Below, in pieces: positions 6,736-50,702 of a stretch of 64,000 nt of DNA; position 1 is the first letter of the stretch; the number at the start of each line of letters is the position of its first letter. The DNA is taken from NCBI RefSeq assembly GCF_027111275.1, contig NZ_CP114286.1, positions 868,001-932,000 on the forward strand, given 5' to 3'. The position numbers and the translations under genes are program-made. Below the pieces are notes generated by a model. It was not told where the DNA came from and made no database searches. It saw nothing but the letters and a program-made list of their open reading frames with translations. Source of the stretch: Flavobacterium luteolum (GTDB taxonomy: Bacteria; Bacteroidota; Bacteroidia; Flavobacteriales; Flavobacteriaceae).

Positions 6736-7047
6736 TTATGGTTGTACTGTTTCGCCTTCCCAATCCAGGATTCCTCCAAGCAGATTGTAGGCGTTTTCGA
6801 TACCCAATTCGTTCATAATCTGACACGCTTTTGCGCTTCTAGCTCCAGAACGGCAGTATACGTAATAATTTTTATTTTTGTCTAATTCTTCGATTTCATA
6901 GATAAATGCCTGCCCTTTATTGATATCAATATTTAGAGCATTCTCAATGTAGCCGTCATTAAATTCGTCTTCAGTTCTTACATCAAGTATAACTGCATTT
7001 TCGTCAGTCTCTAACTGAGCAACCCAATCTTCTTGTGATAAATTCAT
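6736..7047 (-). CDS. Single-domain rhodanese-like sulfurtransferase
   Basis: The ATG at 7047 (MNLSQEDW) is chosen over an in-frame ATG at 7086, because a TAATTTTA box (minus strand, 7065-7072) fits a promoter between them. This gives 103 residues. The CDC25-type fold shows LDVRTEDEFNDGYIENALNI, and the active-site loop C65-RSGARS has the catalytic cysteine that carries persulfide. Such proteins move sulfane sulfur between cytoplasmic acceptors. It is divergent from the Crp/Fnr gene and close to other persulfide-handling genes, which suggests a role in the same network. Confidence 0.88.
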   Translation of the reverse strand: MNLSQEDWVAQLETDENAVILDVRTEDEFNDGYIENALNIDINKGQAFIYEIEELDKNKNYYVYCRSGARSAKACQIMNELGIENAYNLLGGILDWEGETVQP

Positions 7048-7408
7048 AATAAAATGTGTTTTTGTAAAATTACGACGTTTCTCCATATGAAAAACGTACC
7101 AAATGCGATTTCGATTATTATTCTCAGAAAACGTTTTAGAGAAAGTATTATAATCAGTGAATTACAAATTTAGTTACTATTTTCAAAAATTCAGCCTACA
7201 AAATCGATAGAAAATAGGATTTTTTCATTTATATAAAATTAATCTTAAATCTAGTTTTCTGATAATTATTCCCATCTCAAACCCTTATCTTTGCAATCAA
7301 TCATATATTTTTATTCGATTTTGATAAAAATATTCGCCACGAATTACACGAATTCTCACGAATTAATTGTTTTGAATTAATGCAATTGGCGGCAAAAAAA
7401 TCTACAAT
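7048..7408 (+). promoter_or_regulatory. Divergent rhodanese / crp intergenic region with crp promoter and repeat
   Basis: A perfect TAnnTTTG box (TATCTTTG, 7286-7293) points toward the Crp/Fnr gene and predicts a leader of about 110 nt. Part of that leader (7334-7368) is a dispersed repeat (CGCCACGAATTACACGAATT type) whose inverted partner lies after the gene at 8200-8228. I found no good copy of the RTRAY-N4-GTYAY palindrome at the activating position, so self-activation is not indicated. Confidence 0.6.
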
Positions 7409-8035
7409 ATGCAGCATTCATTAAAAACCATTTTTCCTAATTTCTCTAACGAGCTTATCGCTACAATAGAAGAAAACGGAAGTCTTCAGGATTTTGAAAC
7501 CGGAACCATTTTAATGCGCACCGGACAGTATATTAAAAATACAGTTTTGATTATTAAAGGTAAAATCAAAATCTATCGCGAAGGAGAAGATGGCGGAGAG
7601 TTTTTAATGTATTATCTACAGCCAGGGCAAGCCTGTGCTATCTCGATGATCTGTACTGCCAAAAGCGAAAAAAGTCAGATTATGGCAAAAGTCGTAGAAG
7701 ATGTTACCGTGATGATGATTCCGTTGCAATTGATGGACAAATGGATGATGGAACATAGAAGTTGGTACGAATTTGTAATTGAAACCTACAGAAGCCGTTT
7801 TGAAGAAGTTCTCGAAGTGGTTGATAATATTGCTTTCCGTTCTATGGATGAAAGATTAGAGTTTTACCTAAAACGTCATTCCGATGCTTGCGGCTGTTCT
7901 GAGGTAAATCTCTCACACCAAGAAATCGCAACCGAATTGAATACTTCGCGTGAAGTGGTTTCCAGATTACTCAAAAAAATGGAACAGCGAGGTTTAGTCA
8001 AACTCAACAGAAACCAGATTGAGTTATTGAAATAG
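7409..8035 (+). CDS. Crp/Fnr family transcriptional regulator
   Basis: 208 residues: a cNMP-binding-like beta-roll (about 20-115), a long dimer helix (about 118-145) and a winged HTH (about 165-205). The recognition helix TSREVVSRLLKKME carries R181, E182, S185 and R186, mixing Crp-type and FNR-type contact residues; the FNR-type serine suggests a TGA-core half-site. Four cysteines are present (C76, C82, C161, C163), but not the N-terminal cluster of E. coli FNR. The canonical cAMP-binding motif is not obvious. Cytochrome bd, TauE and the persulfide dioxygenase are nearby, and matching palindromes lie in front of them, so this is the likely local regulator. It may sense thiols, sulfide or redox state through the cysteines (inference). 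Confidence 0.9.
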   Translation: MQHSLKTIFPNFSNELIATIEENGSLQDFETGTILMRTGQYIKNTVLIIKGKIKIYREGEDGGEFLMYYLQPGQACAISMICTAKSEKSQIMAKVVEDVTVMMIPLQLMDKWMMEHRSWYEFVIETYRSRFEEVLEVVDNIAFRSMDERLEFYLKRHSDACGCSEVNLSHQEIATELNTSREVVSRLLKKMEQRGLVKLNRNQIELLK

Positions 8036-8040
8036 TTTTT

Positions 8041-8127
8041 TTTTAGCCACAGATTAAAAGGATTATTAGGATTTCTTTTTATTAAGAATGGAAAAATCCA
8101 TCTAATCCTTTTAATCTGTGGCTAAAA
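8041..8127. repeat. Long inverted repeat after crp (GCCACAGATTAAAAGGATTA family)
   Basis: Perfect 25-bp arms at 8041-8065 and 8103-8127 around a 37-nt loop. The same core (GCCACAGATTAAAA / TTTTAATCTGTGGC) recurs at 15764-15877 and 37950-38068. It may act as a bidirectional terminator for crp. Confidence 0.8.
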
Positions 8128-8135
8128 TATTTTCT

Positions 8136-8230
8136 CTTGTCAGGCTGAGCGAAGTCGAAGCCCCGCAAAGCATTTCGGCTTCACTTAATGTGACAAAATA
8201 ATTCGTGAAAATTCGTGAATTCGTGGCGAA
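8136..8230. repeat. Dispersed repeat mosaic between crp and tauE
   Basis: Holds a hairpin whose outer arms are TTGTCA and TGACAA and inner arms GAAGCC and GGCTTC (8138-8195). It is followed by ATTCGTGAAAATTCGTGAATTCGTGGCG-like DNA (8200-8228), the inverted partner of 7334-7368. Confidence 0.65.
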
Positions 8231-8242
8231 AAAAAAGCTTCT

Positions 8243-8286
8243 GTGATAAATGTTACTGTAGGATTCTAATTTCCGAGGCAACTTTG
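8243..8286 (+). promoter_or_regulatory. Predicted Crp/Fnr-type operator and promoter of tauE
   Basis: Palindrome GTGAT-AAAT-GTTAC at 8243-8256, then 22 bp, then a -7 box CAACTTTG at 8279-8286 (one mismatch to TAnnTTTG). The spacing equals that upstream of the persulfide dioxygenase gene and places the site near -41.5 relative to a probable start, the class II activator position. Confidence 0.65.
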
Positions 8287-8302
8287 CATTAAAATAAATG
8301 CA

Positions 8303-9088
8303 ATGGAATATTTAGGATTTTTTGCCTCAATCATAATCGGAATCTCGCTTGGCTTAATTGGTGGTGGCGGTTCTATTTTGACTATTCCAATTTTAGTTTA
8401 TTTATTTGCAGTAAATCCTGATCAGGCTACTTCTTATTCTTTATTTATTGTCGGATTAACAGCATTGTTTGGAAGTTACAGCCATTATAAAATGGGGAAT
8501 CTAAAACTGAAATCGGCATTGTATTTTGCTATTCCTTCTGTTATTTCAATTTTGATAATCCGTGAAGTAATCTTTCCCCAGATTGCATCAACATTGTTTT
8601 CTGTTGCTTCTTATACCGTTTCAAAAGATTTTCTTATTATGATTATCTTTTCCATTTTAATGATTACAGCAGCTATTTCTATGATTAAAAAAAATCAGCC
8701 CGAAATAACAGCAGTAGAAACCAATTATCCGCAACTTAGCTTAATTGGCTTTTTGGTCGGAATCGTAACTGGATTTCTAGGCGCTGGCGGCGGATTCTTG
8801 ATTATTCCTGCGTTGCTTTTTTTCGCCAAACTGCCCATGAAACAAGCCGTTGGCACTTCTCTGTTAATCATTACCATAAATTCGTCAATAGGTTTTGTCG
8901 GAGATTTATACATTGGAACACCTATAAATTATACTTTTCTTTTAAGCGTTTCTGCAATGGCCTTAATCGGAATGATAATTGGAAGCCAACTTTCTAAAAA
9001 AATAGACGGCACAAAATTAAAACCTCTTTTTGGATGGTTTGTCCTCGTTATGGGATTTTATATCATTGCCAAAGAAGTTTTATTCTAA
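8303..9088 (+). CDS. TauE/SafE family sulfur-anion exporter
   Basis: 261 residues, an integral inner-membrane protein with about eight hydrophobic segments in two repeated halves. Each half opens with the family's glycine-rich loop: GLIGGGGSILTIPILVYL near residue 18 and GFLGAGGGFLIIPALLFF near residue 154, the latter followed by PMKQAVGTSLLIITINS. TauE/SafE proteins move sulfite or other small sulfur anions out of the cell. In Staphylococcus aureus a tauE gene accompanies the CstB persulfide dioxygenase, and here a CstB-like gene lies 6 kb away with a matching operator. Export of sulfite or thiosulfate made during persulfide detoxification is the best inference. Confidence 0.88.
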   Translation: MEYLGFFASIIIGISLGLIGGGGSILTIPILVYLFAVNPDQATSYSLFIVGLTALFGSYSHYKMGNLKLKSALYFAIPSVISILIIREVIFPQIASTLFSVASYTVSKDFLIMIIFSILMITAAISMIKKNQPEITAVETNYPQLSLIGFLVGIVTGFLGAGGGFLIIPALLFFAKLPMKQAVGTSLLIITINSSIGFVGDLYIGTPINYTFLLSVSAMALIGMIIGSQLSKKIDGTKLKPLFGWFVLVMGFYIIAKEVLF

Positions 9089-9133
9089 CCGTAATCTCCA
9101 AGAACTTTTATTTAGTTTCACTTGTAGAGTAAT

Positions 9134-9162
9134 CTTTGTCAAAGTTTAAAACTTTGACAAAG
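9134..9162. repeat. Inverted repeat CTTTGTCAAAGTTT / AAACTTTGACAAAG
   Basis: Near-perfect hairpin between the convergent tauE and HTH genes. An almost identical copy lies at 59374-59403, also between convergent genes. Probably a bidirectional terminator. Confidence 0.75.
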
Positions 9163-9177
9163 ATGAAACTAAAACCT

Positions 9178-9564
9178 TCAAATCTCTCCAAACTTATCTT
9201 TATAACGTTCCAGTTCAATTTCGGTTCTCGAAAGCAGTTTTTCTAGCAACTGAATTTTGTCTTCATAAAGCTCTTTAAGAACCGAAGAATTATCGGCATT
9301 AATCAAAATACTGCCGTTATTGTTTCCTGTTATTTTGTTGTAATTATTAAAATATTTATCGTAATCAAAACTAATTATATCCTCAACGCTGACATCTAAA
9401 ATCCTTCCTATTTCAACCAATTTTTCGTAACTCAAAGAAGTCTTTCCTTTTTCAATTTTACTGTAACCCGCCTGAGTTACACCTAACCTTTCTGCCATAT
9501 ATTCTTGAGTATAATTTTTTAACTCTCTAATGTTTCTAATCTTGTTTTTAATTGTTGTGGCCAT
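9178..9564 (-). CDS. XRE-family helix-turn-helix protein with C-terminal coiled coil
   Basis: 128 residues. Residues about 5-62 are a Cro/C1-type HTH: IRELKNYTQEYMAERLGVTQ and SKIEKGKTSLSYEKLVEIGRILDVSVEDII. A polar Asn-rich linker (NNYNKITGNNNGS) leads to a predicted coiled coil (about 92-126, LKELYEDKIQLLEKLLSRTEIELERYK) for oligomerisation. This architecture is common among flavobacterial stand-alone regulators. Targets are unknown; no mobile-element genes are nearby. Confidence 0.85.
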   Translation of the reverse strand: MATTIKNKIRNIRELKNYTQEYMAERLGVTQAGYSKIEKGKTSLSYEKLVEIGRILDVSVEDIISFDYDKYFNNYNKITGNNNGSILINADNSSVLKELYEDKIQLLEKLLSRTEIELERYKDKFGEI

Positions 9565-9699
9565 AATTTTTTAATCTGATTTGGGGTCATGTATAGTTAA
9601 AACAGCCAGCCGTTAAATTACAACGGCTTAACTACACTTATTTTTGGGTATTATTATTATTGAAGCTTCATCAATAAAGAAATATGATAAGCATTTTTG

Positions 9700-9789
9700 T
9701 TAATTCTTTCTTTTTGTAATGAAATAACCGTACATCAAAGCTGCCATTATGAAAACAAAGTCATAACGGGAAATAGTAAATTCAAACAT
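9700..9789 (-). CDS. Possible 29-residue single-span membrane microprotein
   Basis: An ATG at 9789 opens a 29-residue frame ending at TAA (9700-9702). It begins MFEFTISRYDFVFIMAAL and continues through a hydrophobic span to a basic end (TKRKN). One membrane segment with a Lys/Arg tail is the usual form of real bacterial microproteins. It starts only 16 bp after the stop of the 134-residue membrane protein gene on the same strand, so the two could be co-transcribed. There is no homology evidence; the call rests on composition and position. Confidence 0.4.
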   Translation of the reverse strand: MFEFTISRYDFVFIMAALMYGYFITKRKN

Positions 9790-9805
9790 TTCTGATTTTT
9801 TTTTG

Positions 9806-10210
9806 TTAGGCAGTTCTTTTTACATTTCTTTCAAACTGAAGATCTAAATAGTAATCGATCTGTTTTCCAACCAATATACGGTCCTCTGGTGCTATTTTAG
9901 TTTTAATTTCTTTTTGGTAAATATCTTTAACAAAAAGAAAATACACAAACTCAGTTTTATCATTAAACCTCATTGCAATAATAAAAGCATAGCATAAAAT
10001 TGATGGAATAATATAATAGAGATCCATTATATTAGAAAATAGCATACAATAATATGCAGCAGCAGTTACGGCGATAAAAGCGCCATTTTCAAGAAAATAC
10101 TTTTTCTTTTTTTTGAGCAGTCCAAGTTCTTTAATTTCGTCAAATTGATACTGCCAGTTTTTAGATTTATAACGAAATCTAACCTCATCGGAAAAAATTG
10201 TTAAAGGCAT
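9806..10210 (-). CDS. Small membrane protein of unknown function
   Basis: 134 residues with two adjacent membrane segments (about 44-62 and 66-82: FIAVTAAAYYCMLFSNIM, YYIIPSILCYAFIIAM). They are flanked by a basic N-terminal domain (EVRFRYKSKNWQYQFDEIKELGLLKKKKK) and a charged C-terminal domain. The N-terminal part resembles a PH-like domain of bacterial membrane proteins in pattern only. A possible microprotein gene follows 16 bp downstream. I do not recognise the family. Confidence 0.6.
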   Translation of the reverse strand: MPLTIFSDEVRFRYKSKNWQYQFDEIKELGLLKKKKKYFLENGAFIAVTAAAYYCMLFSNIMDLYYIIPSILCYAFIIAMRFNDKTEFVYFLFVKDIYQKEIKTKIAPEDRILVGKQIDYYLDLQFERNVKRTA

Positions 10211-10429
10211 AATTAAGTAGGTAAAATAGCTTTACGCTTTTAGTAAAAATGAATTGCTAAAAATTTTTTAGGGGGAAAAAATTCTTAGATACGCAATATT
10301 AAGCATTAACTGCTTTTTTTTCTTACAGTACAGCTTATAGAATATAACTATCAGTTGTAATTAAATCTTTCGTAAAAATTATCATACACTTTTAACTGCC
10401 AAAATATATTTATTTTTAAAAGGCAATAA

Positions 10430-10690
10430 TTTGGGCGTTTCCTTCGGCCGGGCTATCCGCTTGTATCTTTTCCTTGCTAAAGAAGCAAGAAAAAGGATAC
10501 CGCTCCTATCCCTAACGCAATATCGGGTCAAATGATCTTTTCGGTTTTAATATTTCCAATCAATTGCCTCCAGTTTTAACTGGAGGTAAAAAACATTTTA
10601 AAAAAAGGCTTTAGCCAAAACCGCAAAGTTTGGCTAAAGCCCAATTCAAATTCAAACAAAAAACCTCCAGTTAAAACTGGAGGCAATTCA
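10430..10690. repeat. Composite dispersed repeat block between the 134-residue gene and cydB
   Basis: Two families abut. At 10430-10510 lies a GGGCGTTTCC...GGGCTATCCGCT...CCTATCCCTAACGC segment of a type seen repeatedly in Flavobacterium genomes. At 10565-10686 two copies of the palindrome CCTCCAGTTTTAACTGGAGG (the second reads TTAAAACT in its centre) flank an inner hairpin, GGCTTTAGCC / GGCTAAAGCC. The gene-free stretch 10211-10735 holds nothing else I can support. Confidence 0.75.
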
Positions 10691-10735
10691 TATAGAATTT
10701 GTGAAAATTTGTGAAATTCGTGGCAAACAAAAAAA

Positions 10736-11812
10736 TCAATGTTCCCCATACCCAATATCATCCATTTTCCCGCTAAAAACACGATATTGAATAATAAAAT
10801 AAATAATCACGAGAAACAAAGCGATAAAAAACCAGCTCAAGCCAGCATTCAATCCGTATTCGTGAGCGGCGGTATTATATATCGTTAAAGACGGATTCAC
10901 TTTATTGGTTGAAGGCAAAACATTTGGAAAAATCGAAACTGCTGTTGAGGCAAATCCTCCAACTAAAAACAAAGTCGAAAACAGAAATCCGTGACCGTCT
11001 TTTTTGAAGGAACGAACTTTGAACAATCCTGCAATTCCGACAAAAGTCATTAAAGGAAAAAACCAAAGAATTGGATTTTCGACGAAATTATGAAAGGGTT
11101 TCGGCTCGATAAAGTGCCAAATTCCCAAAGAAATAAAGACCAAAATCAACAGAACAAAGTTCAGTCTAAAAACTACATTTTTCAATTTCGGATTCAGCGC
11201 AGAATTTGTTTTATAAATAATCCAGTTTGCACCGTGAATCGTTAATGCGACAACACTCACGATTCCTAAGAAAAGCGTAAACCAGTCAATAATTCCCAAT
11301 TCATCTGCTTGCGGACTAAAAGTAGGATTCCATAAAGGCAAAAAGAAAAAATGCGCTTCTTGCGTAGAAACTCCATTCTGAACCATTCCTAGATTAACAC
11401 CGCGAACGATATTTCCTAAAGCAATTCCGAAGAAAAGAGCCAAAAGCAAACTCGCGATTCCGAAAGCTTTATCCCAAATGCTTTCCCACATGTGATTGTG
11501 AATTTGTCCGCGCATTTCCAATCCGATCGCACGGAAAATCAAAAGCCATAAAATCATAATCAAAGGCAGATAAAATCCGCTGAAAGATGATGCATATAAA
11601 GTCGGAAAAGCAAAAAACAAAACTCCTCCAGCTGCAATCAGCCAAACTTCATTGGCATCCCAAAACGGACCAATGGCATTGGTGATTGCTTTTTTATCTT
11701 TTTCTGTATCAGCAAAAAATAAATGAATAATTCCTGCACCAAAATCGTAACCGTCCAAAACTAGATAAACGGCCAGAATTCCCATTAAAACTACGTACCA
11801 AAAAAATTCCAT
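10736..11812 (-). CDS. cydB: Cytochrome bd ubiquinol oxidase subunit II
   Basis: 358 residues, about eight to nine membrane helices. It opens with the family hallmark MEFFWYVVLMGILAVYLVLDGYDFGAGI. FWDANEVWLIAAGGVLFFAFP follows near residue 50, including W and E residues conserved in CydB. CydB scaffolds the bd oxidase, which reduces oxygen to water with quinol and tolerates low oxygen and sulfide. It starts 2 bp after cydA ends, so the two are translationally coupled. Downstream is a repeat block and no further gene on this strand nearby. Confidence 0.97.
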   Translation of the reverse strand: MEFFWYVVLMGILAVYLVLDGYDFGAGIIHLFFADTEKDKKAITNAIGPFWDANEVWLIAAGGVLFFAFPTLYASSFSGFYLPLIMILWLLIFRAIGLEMRGQIHNHMWESIWDKAFGIASLLLALFFGIALGNIVRGVNLGMVQNGVSTQEAHFFFLPLWNPTFSPQADELGIIDWFTLFLGIVSVVALTIHGANWIIYKTNSALNPKLKNVVFRLNFVLLILVFISLGIWHFIEPKPFHNFVENPILWFFPLMTFVGIAGLFKVRSFKKDGHGFLFSTLFLVGGFASTAVSIFPNVLPSTNKVNPSLTIYNTAAHEYGLNAGLSWFFIALFLVIIYFIIQYRVFSGKMDDIGYGEH

Positions 11813-11814
11813 AC

Positions 11815-13161
11815 TTATATTTTTTCTGTTGAAAGTTCCACATGACGCGGACCTTTATTGATAATTTTTCCAACTAAAAGTAAAAACAGCATTCCCAGTA
11901 AAAGGTATAAACCAATAAAACCAAGTAGCGTAAATAAGGTATTTCCTGATGAAACCGTCGGTGAAGCTCCGGCTGCTGTTCTCAATAAATTGTAAACTAG
12001 CCAAGGCTGTCTTCCTAATTCTGCGGTATACCAACCCGTTGTATTGGCAATGTACGGAAACGGCATCATGAACATTAGAGACCATAAAATCCATTTGGTT
12101 TCAAACAATTTCCCTCTAATTAATTGAAAAAGCGAAAGCACCATCAATCCAATAAAAACTGTTCCGAGTCCGACCATAATATGATAGGCATAATACAAAC
12201 CAGAAATATTGGTTGGGTGCAAGTCTTCTTCAAACTGATCTAAACCTTTTATTTCCTGATCCCAGTTTCCATAAGTCAGGAAACTTAGAATGTTTGGAAC
12301 AGCGATTTTATTATCCAGTTTTTTATCTTTTACATCGGGCTGACCGATTAAGACAATTTCTGAACCTTTCTTTTCGGTATGAAAAATTCCTTCCATCGCA
12401 GCAAAAGTTACCGGTTGGTATTTCACTACATTTTTAGCCAGTAAATCTCCTGTTGGAACAGCCACAATGACACTCGAAATCAATCCGAAGATTACTCCCG
12501 TTTTAAGGAATAATTTCCCGAAATCAACATTCTTTTTACTTAAAATATAGAAAGCTCCAATTCCAGCCACAACAAAAGAACTCGTTACCAAAGAAGCGGC
12601 TTGATTGTGCAAATACGAAGGCCAAAGCCAAGGATTTAAGAATAAAGCTTGAAAATTATTTAGAACAAATTTTCCATCTTCGAGGATTTCATAACCAACT
12701 GGATTCTGCATCCAGGAATGTGTGGCAATAATTAGGTAACCACTCGCCCAAGAACCAATCATGATTAGCAATCCCGTTACAAAATGCCATTTATGCCCGA
12801 GAAGTTTTTCTCCGAACAAAAATAATCCAAGAAAAGAAGATTCGAGAAAGAAAGAGAACATTCCTTCCATTGCCAGCGTCTGACCAATGATTCCGCCAGT
12901 TAATTCAGAGAATTTTGCCCAATTGGTTCCAAATTGAAACTCCATCGGAATTCCCGTTACAACGCCCATTGCAAAATTGAGGGCGAAGATTTTCATCCAG
13001 AAATGGGTGGCGTGATTGTATTGTTCGTCTTTAGTCTTGAGATATTTCCACTTGAAGTACACAATGATCAACGAAAGACCCATTGTAAGTTGCGGAAAAA
13101 GATAATGAAAAGTGATCGTGAAGGCAAATTGCATTCGATCATAAAAGAGCATTTCTTCCAT
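11815..13161 (-). CDS. cydA: Cytochrome bd ubiquinol oxidase subunit I
   Basis: The ATG at 13161 (MEEMLFYDRMQFAFTITFHYLF) gives 448 residues, and the family N-terminus aligns there. A longer frame from 13200 would begin inside a TAAATTTG promoter box. Heme-ligand regions are visible: the early His in FHYLFPQLTMGL, the MEGMFSFFLES helix and GWYTAELGRQPW (GRQPW signature). The length indicates the short quinol-loop type common in Bacteroidota. CydA carries hemes b558, b595 and d. Bd oxidases resist sulfide inhibition, which fits the persulfide-metabolism genes on both sides. The upstream palindrome ATGAC-N4-GTCAT suggests co-regulation. Confidence 0.97.
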   Translation of the reverse strand: MEEMLFYDRMQFAFTITFHYLFPQLTMGLSLIIVYFKWKYLKTKDEQYNHATHFWMKIFALNFAMGVVTGIPMEFQFGTNWAKFSELTGGIIGQTLAMEGMFSFFLESSFLGLFLFGEKLLGHKWHFVTGLLIMIGSWASGYLIIATHSWMQNPVGYEILEDGKFVLNNFQALFLNPWLWPSYLHNQAASLVTSSFVVAGIGAFYILSKKNVDFGKLFLKTGVIFGLISSVIVAVPTGDLLAKNVVKYQPVTFAAMEGIFHTEKKGSEIVLIGQPDVKDKKLDNKIAVPNILSFLTYGNWDQEIKGLDQFEEDLHPTNISGLYYAYHIMVGLGTVFIGLMVLSLFQLIRGKLFETKWILWSLMFMMPFPYIANTTGWYTAELGRQPWLVYNLLRTAAGASPTVSSGNTLFTLLGFIGLYLLLGMLFLLLVGKIINKGPRHVELSTEKI

Positions 13162-13187
13162 AATGGTAATTTGTTTATGAAGTTCCA

Positions 13188-13293
13188 CAAATTTAACCAT
13201 TAGAACCCGAATTAACCTCCTTTAAAAAAAGTTTATCACCCGATATTTGTTAAACTTTTCAACAATTTAAAGGGTAGAAATGACACTTGTCAT
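13188..13293 (-). promoter_or_regulatory. cydAB promoter region with two inverted repeats
   Basis: On the minus strand a perfect -7 box TAAATTTG lies at 13188-13195. Upstream are GTTTATCA-N9-TGTTAAAC (13231-13255, arms 7 of 8 matching) and the perfect palindrome ATGAC-ACTT-GTCAT (13280-13293, extended by one more pair on each side). The latter has the same 5-4-5 geometry as the tauE and dioxygenase sites but sits about 62 bp further from the -7 box. Confidence 0.5.
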
Positions 13294-13309
13294 TTTTTGA
13301 GTTAGGTAC

Positions 13310-13516
13310 AGTTTGTCATTTCGAACGAAGAGAGAAATCTTCGCAAGAAGCTCGACAAAGATTTGACTTTCGTTACGGAGTTACTTGCGAAGATTTCTCC
13401 TTCGTCGAAATGACAAGATTACATATAGATTTACATGATCAAAAACATAACCCGTGGTTTCAACCACGGAAACGTATCGTGAATATGCATGAGTTCCTGC
13501 GGTTGAAACCGCAGGC
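13310..13516. repeat. Two dispersed inverted repeats between cydA and the HD gene
   Basis: 13312-13425 is a long imperfect hairpin of the TGTCATTTCGACGAAGGAG / CTCCTTCGTCGAAATGACA family, also seen at 31928-32033 and 50524-50656. 13450-13516 holds CCGTGGTTTCAACCACGG and GCGGTTGAAACCGC. A reading frame over 13287-13586 is only a by-product of these repeats. Confidence 0.75.
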
Positions 13517-13548
13517 TATGTTTGATTTTGATTGCTTGGCACTATTAG

Positions 13549-14139
13549 TTATTTCTCTAAAATACCTTTCTGAACACTTTCATTAATCAAACCTTCGGCA
13601 TAATTCCATAATGATTCTGAACCATTTTTAATGACGCTTTTCTTTTCGTAAACTTTATCGTATTTCACTCCAAACTCTTTCCAAGTTCCGCCGTTGTTTG
13701 ATGTATTTTGCAGCAAAGGCTCTAATCTGTCCATTGATCTTGCAAATTTGGCTTCGTTAGTTTCTCCTGCTTCAAATTCTTCCCAGATTGCAATTAGTTC
13801 TTTGGCTTGCTTTTCTGGCAGTAATCCAAAAATTCTATTTGCGGCTAAACGTTCTTCATCTGTTTTGTCATGACTTTTTACAGTATCATAAATAAAAACA
13901 TCGCCTGCATCAATTTCGACAATATCATGAATCAAAACCATTTTTACGACTTTCAAAACATCAATCGGTTCATTGGAATGTTCTGCCAAAACAATTGCCA
14001 TCAAGGCCAAATGCCAGCTGTGTTCTGCATCATTTTCGCATCGGTCGCTGTTGAACAATTTTGTCTTGCGCTGAATGTATTTTACTTTATCAATTTCTTT
14101 TATAAAAGCAATTTGATCTATTAAGTCCTGTGTGTTCAT
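13549..14139 (-). CDS. HD-domain phosphohydrolase, YfbR/5'-deoxynucleotidase-like
   Basis: The start at 14139 (MNTQDLIDQIAF) gives 196 residues. The longer frame to 14205 would include the promoter and a palindrome. Metal ligands are visible: H40 and H43 in NDAEHSWHLAL, H71-D72 in LIHDIVEIDAGD and D137 in ARSMDRLEPLL. This matches the small HD family that removes phosphate from nucleoside monophosphates. It is probably a cytoplasmic nucleotide house-cleaning enzyme. It is divergent from the persulfide dioxygenase operon (204 bp between starts), and its promoter carries a palindrome of the same geometry. Confidence 0.85.
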   Translation of the reverse strand: MNTQDLIDQIAFIKEIDKVKYIQRKTKLFNSDRCENDAEHSWHLALMAIVLAEHSNEPIDVLKVVKMVLIHDIVEIDAGDVFIYDTVKSHDKTDEERLAANRIFGLLPEKQAKELIAIWEEFEAGETNEAKFARSMDRLEPLLQNTSNNGGTWKEFGVKYDKVYEKKSVIKNGSESLWNYAEGLINESVQKGILEK

Positions 14140-14157
14140 TTTCTTTTTTGTTTTAAA

Positions 14158-14182
14158 ATGACATTCGTCATACGCAAAATTA
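14158..14182 (-). promoter_or_regulatory. Promoter of the HD gene with FNR-geometry palindrome over the start site
   Basis: Minus strand: perfect -7 box TAATTTTG at 14175-14182, then the palindrome ATGAC-ATTC-GTCAT at 14158-14171. The site covers the expected transcription start, a position suited to repression rather than activation. Confidence 0.5.
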
Positions 14183-14273
14183 AAGCTTAAAGCGTAATTG
14201 CTCAACTTAAAATTAAGTTATCTCAATCGAATATGGCAAACTGCGCTTTTTTTTACATAAAAACCTAATTTCT

Positions 14274-14317
14274 GTAACATTAGTCACCTATTTTTTTAAA
14301 AAACAAAGTTACCTTTG
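14274..14317 (+). promoter_or_regulatory. Predicted Crp/Fnr-type operator and promoter of the persulfide dioxygenase operon
   Basis: Palindrome GTAAC-ATTA-GTCAC (14274-14287), a 22-bp spacer and a perfect -7 box TACCTTTG (14310-14317). The 22-bp spacing is identical to that at the tauE promoter. The leader is about 22 nt. Confidence 0.7.
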
Positions 14318-14343
14318 TAACCCATCATTTTACAATATCTATC

Positions 14344-15759
14344 ATGAAAATAGAACAAATTTACACCGGATGCCTTGCTCAAGGTGCATACTATATCACT
14401 TCAAATGGTGAAGCGGCCATTATTGATCCGCTTAGAGAAATTCAGCCTTATCTGGATCGTTTAGAGCGTGATGGCGTTAAACTAAAATATATTTTTGAAA
14501 CGCATTTTCACGCCGATTTCGTTTCAGGTCACGTTGATTTAAGCAAAGAAACTGGAGCTCCAATTGTTTACGGACCAAATGCTGCCTGCGAATTTGACTG
14601 CATTTCTGCAAAAGACGGACAGGAATTTAAAATCGGAAAAATAACCATTAAAGTTTTGCACACTCCTGGACATACTATGGAAAGCACTACTTTTTTACTG
14701 ATTGATGAAAACGGGAAAGATCACGCTATTTTTTCTGGTGATACTTTATTTATCGGAGATGTTGGACGTCCAGATTTAGCGCAAAAAGCAGCTGGAATGA
14801 CACAAGATCAATTGGCTGGAATTTTATATCATTCGTTAAGAGATAAAATCATGACTTTGGCTGATGACGTAATCGTTTATCCAGCGCATGGTGCAGGAAG
14901 CGCCTGCGGAAAAAACATGAGCAAAGAAACTGTTTCTACTATTGGAAATCAAAAAGCGACCAATTATGCTTTGCGAGCTAATATGACCGAAGAAGAGTTC
15001 ATCAAAGAAGTAACTGACGGTTTATTGCCTCCTCCTGCCTATTTCAGCATGAATGTCGCGATGAACAAAGGTGGTTACGAAAGCTTTGAAACTGTTTTAA
15101 ACAACGGAATGAAAGCTATAAACGTAAAAGATTTTGAAGCTGTAGCTGAAGAAACTGGCGCTTTAATTCTAGATACCAGAAGTGCTGTCGATTTTAGTAA
15201 AGGATTTATTCCACAGTCTATCAATATTGGAATCAATGGTGATTTTGCGCCGTGGGTTGGAACTTTAATTGCCGATGTAAAACAGCCAATTATATTGGTT
15301 ACCGCCGCTGGCATGGAAGAAGAAACGGTAACTCGTTTAAGCCGTGTAGGTTTTGATACGATTATTGGACATTTGGAGGGAGGTTTTGAAGCTTGGCAAA
15401 ATGCAGGTTTCGAAGTTGATACTGTAAATAGAATTACAGCAGAGCAATTTGCCAATGAATTTAAACTTGGCGAAGACAAAGTAATAGATATTCGTAAAGA
15501 AACAGAATACGAAGCAGAACATATTGACGATGCTTATAGCAAACCCCTAGCTTATATTAATGATTGGGTAAAAGACATTAATCCCAATGAGCATTTTTAT
15601 CTGCATTGCGCAGGCGGTTACAGAAGCATGATAGCAGCTTCTATACTTCAAGCAAGAGGTTTCAGAAATTTCTCTGAAGTTGAAGGCGGTTTTGGAGCGA
15701 TTTCTAAAACCAATGTCCCTAAATCAGATTTCGTATGCCAAAGCAAAACTCTCAATTAG
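14344..15759 (+). CDS. CstB-like persulfide dioxygenase with pseudo-rhodanese and rhodanese domains
   Basis: 471 residues in three domains. Residues 1-240 are a metallo-beta-lactamase-fold persulfide dioxygenase: H54-F-H56-A-D58 in THFHADFVSGH, H110 in TPGH, D133 in SGDTLF, H182 in PAHGAGSACGK. By analogy with ETHE1, the non-heme iron ligands are H54, H110 and D133. Residues about 258-355 are a rhodanese fold whose active loop reads VTAAGMEEE and lacks the cysteine. Residues about 365-460 are a rhodanese with C422 in HCAGGYRS. Cysteines C10 and C188 match the extra cysteines of CstB. The enzyme should oxidise low-molecular-weight persulfides and release thiosulfate or sulfite. It is the first gene of an operon with the split sulfur transporter. 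Confidence 0.93.
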   Translation: MKIEQIYTGCLAQGAYYITSNGEAAIIDPLREIQPYLDRLERDGVKLKYIFETHFHADFVSGHVDLSKETGAPIVYGPNAACEFDCISAKDGQEFKIGKITIKVLHTPGHTMESTTFLLIDENGKDHAIFSGDTLFIGDVGRPDLAQKAAGMTQDQLAGILYHSLRDKIMTLADDVIVYPAHGAGSACGKNMSKETVSTIGNQKATNYALRANMTEEEFIKEVTDGLLPPPAYFSMNVAMNKGGYESFETVLNNGMKAINVKDFEAVAEETGALILDTRSAVDFSKGFIPQSINIGINGDFAPWVGTLIADVKQPIILVTAAGMEEETVTRLSRVGFDTIIGHLEGGFEAWQNAGFEVDTVNRITAEQFANEFKLGEDKVIDIRKETEYEAEHIDDAYSKPLAYINDWVKDINPNEHFYLHCAGGYRSMIAASILQARGFRNFSEVEGGFGAISKTNVPKSDFVCQSKTLN

Positions 15760-15763
15760 ATTT

Positions 15764-15877
15764 TTGCCACAGATTAAAATGATTAACACAGATAATAAAT
15801 TTAATATATAATTAGCTTGCAGATTTACAGATTACAAAGAAAAAATCCTTTTTAATCTGTGAAATCTGTGGCAAAAA
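15764..15877. repeat. Inverted repeat between the dioxygenase and transporter genes
   Basis: GCCACAGATTAAAATGATTAACACAGAT-type DNA at 15766-15795 pairs with TTTTTAATCTGTGAAATCTGTGGC at 15850-15874. It is the same family as 8041-8127. If it terminates, it would lower expression of the transporter genes relative to the dioxygenase. Confidence 0.7.
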
Positions 15878-15886
15878 AACTAACAA

Positions 15887-16456
15887 ATGAGTTTATTAGA
15901 AATAATAAGAGAACCATGGCCTTGGTACGTTGCAGGCCCGCTGATTGGATTAACTGTTCCAATTTTATTAATTATCGGAAACAAGTCTTTCGGGATTAGT
16001 TCTTCTCTTCGTCATATTTGTGCGGCTTGTATTCCCGCGAATATTTCGTTTTTTAAATACGACTGGAAAAAAGAAAGCTGGAATTTATTCTTTGTTTTAG
16101 GAATATTTCTAGGCGGTTTTATCACTGCTCATTTTTTATCGAATCCAAATCCTGTGGAGATTGCTCCTGAATTATCAGAGAAATTAGCCACCTACGGCAT
16201 TACAGATCATAGTGGTTTAGTTCCTGCACAATTATTTTCTTGGGAAAGTTTATTAACGCTTCGCGGATTTATCATGATTGTCGTGGGCGGATTTTTAGTA
16301 GGCTTCGGAACTCGTTACGCTGGCGGATGCACAAGCGGACACGCGATTATGGGATTATCAAACTTACAATGGCCTTCATTGGTAGCTACTATCTGTTTTA
16401 TGATTGGCGGTTTTGTAATGGCACTTTTGATTTTACCTTATATTCTTTCACTTTAA
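15887..16456 (+). CDS. YeeE/YedE family sulfur transporter, first half
   Basis: 189 residues with about five membrane helices. Family cysteines are visible: C45 and C48 in RHICAACIP and C148 in the signature RYAGGCTSGHAIMGL. YeeE/YedE proteins (TsuA, PmpA/B) carry thiosulfate or sulfane-sulfur compounds across the inner membrane, using cysteine relays. In many Bacteroidota the transporter is split into two genes, and the second half follows 10 bp downstream. With the dioxygenase upstream, the unit probably handles thiosulfate or polysulfide flux; direction of transport cannot be read from sequence. Confidence 0.9.
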   Translation: MSLLEIIREPWPWYVAGPLIGLTVPILLIIGNKSFGISSSLRHICAACIPANISFFKYDWKKESWNLFFVLGIFLGGFITAHFLSNPNPVEIAPELSEKLATYGITDHSGLVPAQLFSWESLLTLRGFIMIVVGGFLVGFGTRYAGGCTSGHAIMGLSNLQWPSLVATICFMIGGFVMALLILPYILSL

Positions 16457-16466
16457 AATTTCAAAA

Positions 16467-16943
16467 ATGAATTTAGAAAATAAAAATATAGACGGCGAAG
16501 GAATCAACGCAAGCCAGAAAAAAGAAACTGTATTAGGAAATCTTAAGTATTTAATCGTTGGAATCTTTTTCGGAATTGTATTTGTAAAAGCAGAAATCAT
16601 CAGCTGGTTTCGTATTCAGGAAATGTTCAATCTAGAGTCATTTCACATGTATGGCGTAATTGGATGCGCTGTTGTTGTTGGATTAATATCGGTACAATTG
16701 ATTAAAAAATTCAACATCAAAACTCTTGATGGCGAAAAAATCGAAATTCAGCCAAAAACTTTTAATAAAGGACAAATTTACGGCGGATTACTATTCGGTT
16801 TCGGATGGGCAATTACTGGAGCTTGTCCAGGTCCGCTTTTTGCTCAAATTGGCACAGGCGCTACTGTAATTGTAGTTACTTTATTAAGTGCAATTGCTGG
16901 AACTTGGGTTTATGGTTTGATTAAAGATAAATTGCCTCATTAA
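16467..16943 (+). CDS. YeeE/YedE family sulfur transporter, second half (DUF6691 type)
   Basis: 158 residues with about four membrane helices and an extended polar N-terminus (about 1-24). The signature GWAITGACPGPLFAQIGTG holds C120, equivalent to the GACPGP cysteine of the C-terminal half of one-chain YeeE/YedE transporters. It starts 10 bp after its partner, so the two halves are almost certainly made together and assemble into one transporter. Confidence 0.9.
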   Translation: MNLENKNIDGEGINASQKKETVLGNLKYLIVGIFFGIVFVKAEIISWFRIQEMFNLESFHMYGVIGCAVVVGLISVQLIKKFNIKTLDGEKIEIQPKTFNKGQIYGGLLFGFGWAITGACPGPLFAQIGTGATVIVVTLLSAIAGTWVYGLIKDKLPH

Positions 16944-31927: not shown

Positions 31928-32033
31928 ATTTGTCATTTCGACGAAGGAGAAATCTTCGTTGCAAAATCGACAAAGATTGGATTTCACTTTACTGAGCTAC
32001 TTGTAGAGATTTCTCCTTCGTCGAAATGACAAG
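31928..32033. repeat. Long inverted repeat, TGTCATTTCGACGAAGGAG family
   Basis: TTGTCATTTCGACGAAGGAG (about 31930) faces CTCCTTCGTCGAAATGACAA (about 32013-32032). The same family occurs at 13312-13425 and 50524-50656. Confidence 0.85.
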
Positions 32034-50462: not shown

Positions 50463-50702
50463 CTGCCACGAAGGCGCTAAGACGCAAAGTTTGTTTTTAT
50501 TTAAGACAACAATTAAACAGGCAGTTTGTCATTTCGACGAAGGAGACTCGAGCGATAGCGAACTGGCGAAGCAAATCTCCGCAAGTAACTCCGCAATCAA
50601 AATCGCCAATCTTTGTAGAGCTTCTCACGGAGATTTCTCCTTCGTCGAAATGACAAAAAATGAGAGAAATCTTTGCGTCTTAGTGCCTTTGTGGCAAAAA
50701 AC
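50463..50702. repeat. Nested inverted repeats between the VOC and ClC genes
   Basis: Outer arms: GCCACGAAGGCGCTAAGACGCAAAG (50464 on) and CTTTGCGTCTTAGTGCCTTTGTGGC (about 50671-50696). Inner arms: TTGTCATTTCGACGAAGGAGA (50525 on) and TCTCCTTCGTCGAAATGACAA (about 50636-50656). A frame over 50377-50739 is made of this DNA. Nothing else is evident in 50454-50828. Confidence 0.8.

Follow-up and report, generated by a model that had tools for sequence, protein, structure and literature searches.

A putative Crp/Fnr-type activator of persulfide detoxification genes in Flavobacterium luteolum and its relatives

Among the persulfide regulators named in reviews are CstR (CsoR type), SqrR/BigR (ArsR type), FisR and OxyR/SoxRS (PMC8148161, PMC9774590), and further reports concern MarR, OhrR, PerR and AdpA. 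In Staphylococcus aureus CstR controls cstA, cstB, sqr and tauE (PMC5480029). FisR of Cupriavidus and Acinetobacter activates the genes for sulfide:quinone oxidoreductase (SQR), persulfide dioxygenase (PDO) and TauE, reactive sulfur being sensed by cysteines in the Cupriavidus protein, and the ArsR-family regulator BigR, which like SqrR carries a two-cysteine switch, controls a yeeE-yedE-pdo2 set in Acinetobacter (PMC7315123, PMC9774590). CstR, SqrR/BigR and FisR fulfil the same function through folds unrelated to that of Crp/Fnr proteins (PMC5480029, PMC7315123, PMC8148161, PMC9774590). The Crp of Acinetobacter baumannii, 50% identical to E. coli Crp, is reported to be persulfidated in cells with unknown effect (PMC7315123), and a Crp-type protein that carries a persulfide therefore has a precedent. 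A Crp/Fnr persulfide regulon was not found in the open-licence PMC literature, and the main text of a transcriptome map of F. psychrophilum contains neither 'Crp' nor 'FNR' (PMC9723704). Here we analyse a stretch of 64,000 nucleotides of Flavobacterium luteolum (the window, positions 868001-932000 of the 5.36-Mb one-contig genome), in which a Crp/Fnr protein is probably the local class II activator of persulfide detoxification, acting through the palindrome GTRAY-N4-RTYAC before tauE and a dioxygenase gene.

The Crp/Fnr gene is followed by tauE, then by cydB, cydA and an HD-domain gene on the minus strand, and finally by the genes of a persulfide dioxygenase and of two YeeE/YedE-type proteins (Table 1). 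The original prediction was that four palindromes RTRAY-N4-GTYAY, before tauE, cydAB, the HD gene and the dioxygenase gene, form one regulon. All four palindromes are present. At tauE and the dioxygenase gene the predicted 22 bp between the palindrome and the -7 box, TAnnTTTG, which we take to be the -7 box of Bacteroidota, proved exact. E. coli CRP and FNR bind 5-4-5 palindromes, and their class II sites lie near -41.5; the geometry of both promoters bears out such a placement, with the sites presumably standing near -41.5 at a fixed distance to the core promoter. These two palindromes look like real regulatory sites and share the refined consensus GTRAY-N4-RTYAC, followed after 22 bp by a NAnnTTTG box. 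Those before cydAB and the HD gene differ from them in type (ATGAC-N4-GTCAT) and have A/T as outer bases, unlike the G/C of the tauE and dioxygenase sites. The idea of one regulon of four like sites thus holds for tauE and the dioxygenase gene only.

The pattern RTRAYN4GTYAY gave 11 matches in the window, three places being counted twice as both strands match, against 3.4 expected, and 0/100 shuffled sequences reached 11. On the plus strand of 7409-16943 there were 5 matches against 0.21 in 1000 Markov-resampled sequences, the fifth of them, at 16866, lying inside a gene. When a composite was defined as palindrome, 22 bp and a box with at most one mismatch, the window held two, those of tauE and the dioxygenase gene (0.02 expected; 0/200 resampled sequences). 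Of 12 places in the genome matching GTRACN4GTYAC, the dioxygenase site alone has a box at 22 bp; L133 has a box at 23 bp, but its site seems, by eye, to lie inside a coding frame. The composite scan of the own genome covered 54 loci of about 3 kb; here a looser rule adds L019, L025, L028, L139 and L142 with a box at 21-23 bp.

For a genus set 121 Flavobacterium genomes were searched, of which 105 had a match to the regulator, and 60 loci were retrieved. For a phylum set 296 genomes were searched, of which 110 matched at E <= 1e-25, and 100 more loci, including nine from the genus, were hand-chosen from the matches. A further set, sharing some contigs with these loci, was made up of 80 named genomes that ranked best among 588 candidates. 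The window and 20 close relatives, mutually non-independent, are referred to as close genomes. By identity of the regulator the genus divides into a close clade (65-100%, clade A) and a distant clade (29-46%, clade B); in Flavobacterium nitrogenifigens (L310) the protein is identical.

Over 161 loci the TAnnTTTG box lies at 22 bp in 76 cases, at 21 in 6 and at 23 in 10, and no other distance between 5 and 45 bp was seen more than twice. In the best 80 of 588 candidates the distance was 22 in 37 cases and 23 in 2, with at most two cases elsewhere, and 69 of these 80 loci carried a composite while 11 did not. Before tauE the composite is kept in 13/18 clade A loci outside the close genomes, and before the dioxygenase gene in 13/17 such loci and in 12/16 of clade B. 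The check proposed with the original prediction, conservation in related Flavobacterium, thus came out positive at these two genes (21/21 close genomes each, window included) and negative at cydA (0/21) and the HD gene (0/20). The other controls, labelled REG, RHO, CYDB, YE1, YE2 and ALDH, also gave 0/21 each in the close genomes. Outside these, composites were seen at REG (2/20 in clade B and 1/99), RHO (3/16), CYDA (3/5) and YE1 (1/1, 1/8 and 3/23), and none at ALDH, CYDB or YE2.

In 58/61 genus loci the regulator gene has tauE, dioxygenase or yeeE/yedE genes as neighbours; the exceptions are L098, L100 and L101. Among hand-picked dioxygenase genes distant from the regulator, 5/20 had a strict composite in regulator-bearing genomes (19 genomes), against 0/20 where the genome gave no regulator match at E <= 1e-25; two of the genes in regulator-bearing genomes (L307, L309) have a palindrome of looser form, likewise 22 bp from the dioxygenase box. 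The dioxygenase homology of F. covae (L345) falls into several pieces, and the gene may be broken. A regulator-tauE-dioxygenase-yeeE cluster was also seen in a metagenome-assembled genome labelled Sphingomonadales (L368), where label or binning may be wrong.

With Pfam scores of 40.2 bits for PF00027 (cut-off 27.5) and 46.6 for PF13545 (cut-off 27) the regulator belongs to the Crp/Fnr superfamily, and PF02583, as in CstR/CsoR, and the sigma54 AAA+ domain, as in FisR, are absent from its Pfam result. The recognition helix of FNR is of the E--SR type, and that of the regulator carries, as predicted, R181, E182, S185 and R186, which would fit TGA-core sites. The contact positions of 162 aligned regulators read RESR in 82, RVSR in 73, RETR in 5, and RASR and RVTR in one each. 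Close genomes left out, composites beside an E182 regulator have at least one TGA half-site in 42/42 loci and those beside a V182 regulator in 5/34; E goes with TGA and V with TAA (Fisher p 3e-16, a value that ignores relatedness). In two of the five V182 exceptions (L183, L196) a second, E182 paralogue adjoins the TGA site and the other sites are TAA-type, and L189, L222 and L234 have a TGA site without such an explanation. In a tree of 80 regulators from which column 182 was left out, 3 changes of the residue and 5 of the site type are counted.

The only cysteines of the regulator are C76, C82, C161 and C163. C76 is found in 162/162 homologues, a set gathered by similarity to the regulator, and aligned to CRP it presumably lies at the phosphate-binding cassette, with C82 six residues on; the cAMP-pocket segment of CRP would here be replaced by CAISMIC. 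Both cysteines are aligned in PDB 3dv8, the best solved-structure match by sequence. All 58 sulfur-linked regulators among the 61 genus loci have a second cysteine at 82 or 83, and the 3 unlinked ones are without it. In the phylum set dithiol regulators are linked in 34 and unlinked in 22 cases, and mono-cysteine ones linked in 14 and unlinked in 31 (Fisher p 0.005, again ignoring relatedness). The regulator scores 44.7 bits with the CRP equivalog NF008732 (cut-off 266) and 20.8 with the FNR model NF008365 (cut-off 228), and N-terminal cysteines for an iron-sulfur cluster were not found.

We suggest that a regulator dimer would sit on GTRAY-N4-RTYAC with one recognition helix in each half-site and its centre near -41.5, where it would replace the -33 element and recruit RNA polymerase at tauE and the dioxygenase gene; the yeeE-yedE genes behind the latter would be co-activated if they form one operon with it. 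Persulfide sensing would be the most economical signal. Most likely, a persulfide or polysulfide would react with C76 and, where present, the second cysteine at 82 or 83, both at the position of the CRP cAMP pocket, and a disulfide or tetrasulfide would fix the DNA-binding form.

Several observations weigh against this interpretation. Genome-wide the palindrome shows no enrichment, neither as the original pattern (399 matches, 645 with the reversed control) nor as GTRAYN4RTYAC (102 and 103 per strand) or GTRACN4GTYAC (12 places and 19). In clade B only 2/14 tauE genes have a composite, and in the phylum set only 9/29 tauE and 15/40 PDO genes, although operon structure may explain part of these phylum counts. 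In two genomes without a regulator match (L271, L272) the dioxygenase gene has TATTTTTG with a related, looser palindrome in front of it at a distance of exactly 22 bp, and because of this the geometry alone cannot name the regulator; the same promoter geometry is also found beside another Crp/Fnr gene of this genome (L033, see below). The link between residue 182 and the half-site, reduced to 3 independent pairs, is not significant, with 1.4 agreeing on average and none opposing. The second cysteine does not strictly indicate sulfur linkage in the phylum set, where the 14 linked mono-cysteine and the 22 unlinked dithiol regulators break the rule, one of the latter being the genus locus L187. 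In relatives composites also precede genes not known to be connected with sulfur (TolC-type, DUF983, DUF5777, DUF202, DUF2202, TetR, DinB). Finally, a search of the own genome for SQR with one query, the L071 protein, gave none convincing, the best match having 24% identity and 22.4 bits.

Could the palindromes be due to chance or derived from repeats, the regulator acting elsewhere? The missing genome-wide enrichment would fit this, as would the palindrome before cydA, which has a dispersed repeat 19 bp away and whose right arm, when extended, is exactly complementary to 10 nt at that repeat's far end. We find this hardly credible for the tauE and dioxygenase sites, as the 22-bp spacing is fixed over the 161 and 80 related loci and the controls in the close genomes are empty. 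The repeat itself is imperfectly palindromic, about 100-130 bp long with ends GTCATTTCGA...TCGAAATGACAA, and has three copies in the window (13313-13416, 31930-32032 and 50526-50656). Nor do we believe, as the original prediction had it, that cydAB and the HD gene are further targets of this regulator by way of the palindromes at 13280 and 14158, which seems very improbable in spite of their perfect symmetry and of the sulfide induction of CydAB in Acinetobacter (PMC7315123). The palindrome before cydAB is intact in 0/20 of the other close genomes and has no box at 22 bp, and in 13 loci with a divergent arrangement of cydA and the dioxygenase gene it is, by eye, the latter that the 22-bp box faces. 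At the HD gene, 3 bp separate the gene's own -7 box TAATTTTG (14175-14182) from the start of the palindrome downstream, which again has no box at 22 bp and is kept in 8/20 close genomes; in L114 it is altered on both sides and still symmetric. Being downstream of its -7 box, it would fit a repressor or nothing, and not a class II activator. Some relatives do have a composite at cytochrome bd: L264, with CydA 80% identical, carries GTAACAAGTGTTAC-22-TACATTTA, and L344 has one whose distance to the cydA start depends on the start chosen, facing cydA as the second site of its divergent region. In L255 and L256 the composite, 234 bp upstream with a spacer of 21, is less clearly tied to cydA. Since L264 and L344 have such composites and this genome has none, the cytochrome bd idea is right in a few relatives and not here.

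The ATGACN4GTCAT palindromes before cydAB and the HD gene may instead belong to a second, FNR-like Crp/Fnr protein encoded at genome position 4107017. The neighbour of that gene has ATGACAATTATCAT 22 bp before GAAATTTG (L033, 2278-2291), with the same A/T outer bases, and the gene is divergent to an open reading frame (ORF) that by our own sequence reading resembles a metal-binding P-type ATPase. Further, a 428-aa minus-strand frame resembling pyridine-nucleotide oxidoreductases has a place ATGACAATTGTCAT, at 4919170-4919183, about 60 bp upstream. However, ATGACN4GTCAT shows no enrichment across the genome (6 places against 4 in the control), the places in L024 and L025 have no obvious target behind them, and neither palindrome in the window has a box at 22 bp, so we regard this assignment as rather unlikely. 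As a separate observation, the 428-aa frame matched an SQR-like query weakly. A comparably low probability goes to the view that the regulator binds the sites we propose and responds to another signal, either O2 or NO by means of an iron-sulfur cluster or the oxidation of thiols in general. O2 and NO are common signals for Crp/Fnr proteins, and clade A regulators mostly have four cysteines (76, 82, 161, 163). On the other hand, C161 is missing in 5/41 and C163 in 4/41 clade A proteins, and in clade B cysteine is not among the residues listed at 161 (18/20 listed) or 163 (20/20 listed); the sites are kept all the same, and we reject a four-cysteine iron-sulfur sensor. The poor fit to FNR and its N-terminal cysteines, along with the largely sulfur-related content of the regulon, also speaks against such a signal. 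Our preferred reading is local class II activation of tauE and the dioxygenase gene, most likely in response to a persulfide or polysulfide.

Table 1. Genes, candidate sites and palindromes of the locus, in window positions.
Feature	Position	Strand	Remark
Crp/Fnr-family regulator, 208 aa	7409..8035	+	Pfam cNMP_binding and HTH_Crp_2 over cut-off
Candidate activator site GTGATAAATGTTAC before tauE	8243..8256	+	Composite in 21/21 close genomes including window
-7 box CAACTTTG of tauE, 22 bp past site	8279..8286	+	Spacer 8257-8278; 1 mismatch to TAnnTTTG
tauE, sulfite/sulfur-compound exporter TauE/SafE	8303..9088	+	PF01925, 149.8 bits
Palindrome before cydAB, examined and rejected	13280..13293	-	Intact only in window among 21 close genomes
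Palindrome before HD gene, rejected as activator site	14158..14171	-	8/20 close genomes including window
Candidate activator site GTAACATTAGTCAC before dioxygenase gene	14274..14287	+	Composite in 21/21 close genomes including window
-7 box TACCTTTG of dioxygenase promoter, 22 bp past site	14310..14317	+	Spacer 14288-14309; 0 mismatches to TAnnTTTG
Persulfide dioxygenase, metallo-beta-lactamase and two rhodanese-like stretches, CstB-like layout	14344..15759	+	Pfam and PDB matches
YeeE/YedE-type sulfur transporter half	15887..16456	+	PF04143; without own site here
YeeE/YedE-type sulfur transporter second half (DUF6691)	16467..16943	+	PF04143, PF20398

Residues 3-452 of the 471 of the dioxygenase are aligned to the best PDB chains, 3tp9 and 3r2u; of its rhodanese-like stretches, read by eye, the first has no cysteine and the second has CAGGYRS. 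The yeeE-yedE genes are possibly part of the dioxygenase operon. Inverted repeats GCCACAGATTAAAA ... AATCTGTGGC were seen by eye at about 8045-8125, after the regulator gene, and at 15766-15875, in the gap between the dioxygenase and yeeE genes, and are possible terminators. A single-domain rhodanese gene (6736-7086), without a site here, is divergent from the regulator gene; it is kept in 20/20 close loci and 15/20 other clade A loci, with weak matches in L069 and L082.

Composites at other genes of the relatives numbered 50 in the 161 loci; an ORF was found for 43, some plainly spurious, and 20 ORFs were given to Pfam. Sulfur-type genes among them encode pyridine-nucleotide oxidoreductase, rhodanese, OsmC, DsrE and Cons_hypoth698 (YeiH-type), and others sulfate permease, YgaP-like membrane protein, thioredoxin and peroxiredoxin. 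By our own reading the pyridine-nucleotide oxidoreductases of L071, L073 and L258 appear SQR-like. Near related regulators a composite precedes a small YgaP-like membrane protein gene in L100, L181, L195, L196, L206, L240 and L243 (PF11127 confirmed for L181 and L206 only), apparently a paralogous sub-regulon. TolC-type outer membrane efflux genes stand behind a composite in L082, L187, L211, L232 and L265, the Pfam call being for L265 only.

Further, we speculate that Crp/Fnr thiol-switch activators of this kind extend across Bacteroidota, with the cAMP pocket turned into a persulfide site, one rigid promoter layout, tuning by residue 182 (E for TGA, V for TAA) and paralogues that split regulons between them; for this wider proposal we see the chances as evenly balanced. 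If true, it would fill the persulfide-regulator gap for a major phylum. The promoter rule (site, 22 bp, -7 box) could be used to predict sulfur regulons, and a role is suggested for the protein of structure 3dv8.

Compared with the known systems, the locus is most like that of CstR in having a local regulator, a CstB-type dioxygenase-sulfurtransferase, TauE and a proposed dithiol chemistry (PMC5480029). Unlike the CsoR-like repressor CstR, the regulator is a predicted Crp/Fnr activator; PF02583 had no match in the own genome, whereas 6/14 control genomes gave one. The predicted cst-like gene set under a non-CsoR regulator was thus recovered in its CstB-like dioxygenase, TauE and Crp/Fnr gene, and fell short in lacking a clear SQR. 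FisR is a sigma54 AAA+ activator, whereas the regulator of this locus would act by recruitment from a class II site, and BigR/SqrR is a repressor of another fold. The A. baumannii Crp differs in being a CRP orthologue with its cysteine opposite the ligand pocket, and is, in the part of that paper concerned with it, not described as a local regulator of persulfide genes (PMC7315123). In PDB 3dv8 both cysteines are aligned with those of the regulator, and the entry names only a Crp/Fnr-family regulator. Although the regulator is without the cAMP-pocket residues of CRP and the cysteine cluster of FNR, and scores far below the cut-off of both models, it shares with these E. coli proteins the fold, the 5-4-5 palindrome, the class II position that the sites would take near -41.5 and, with FNR, a recognition helix of the E--SR type.

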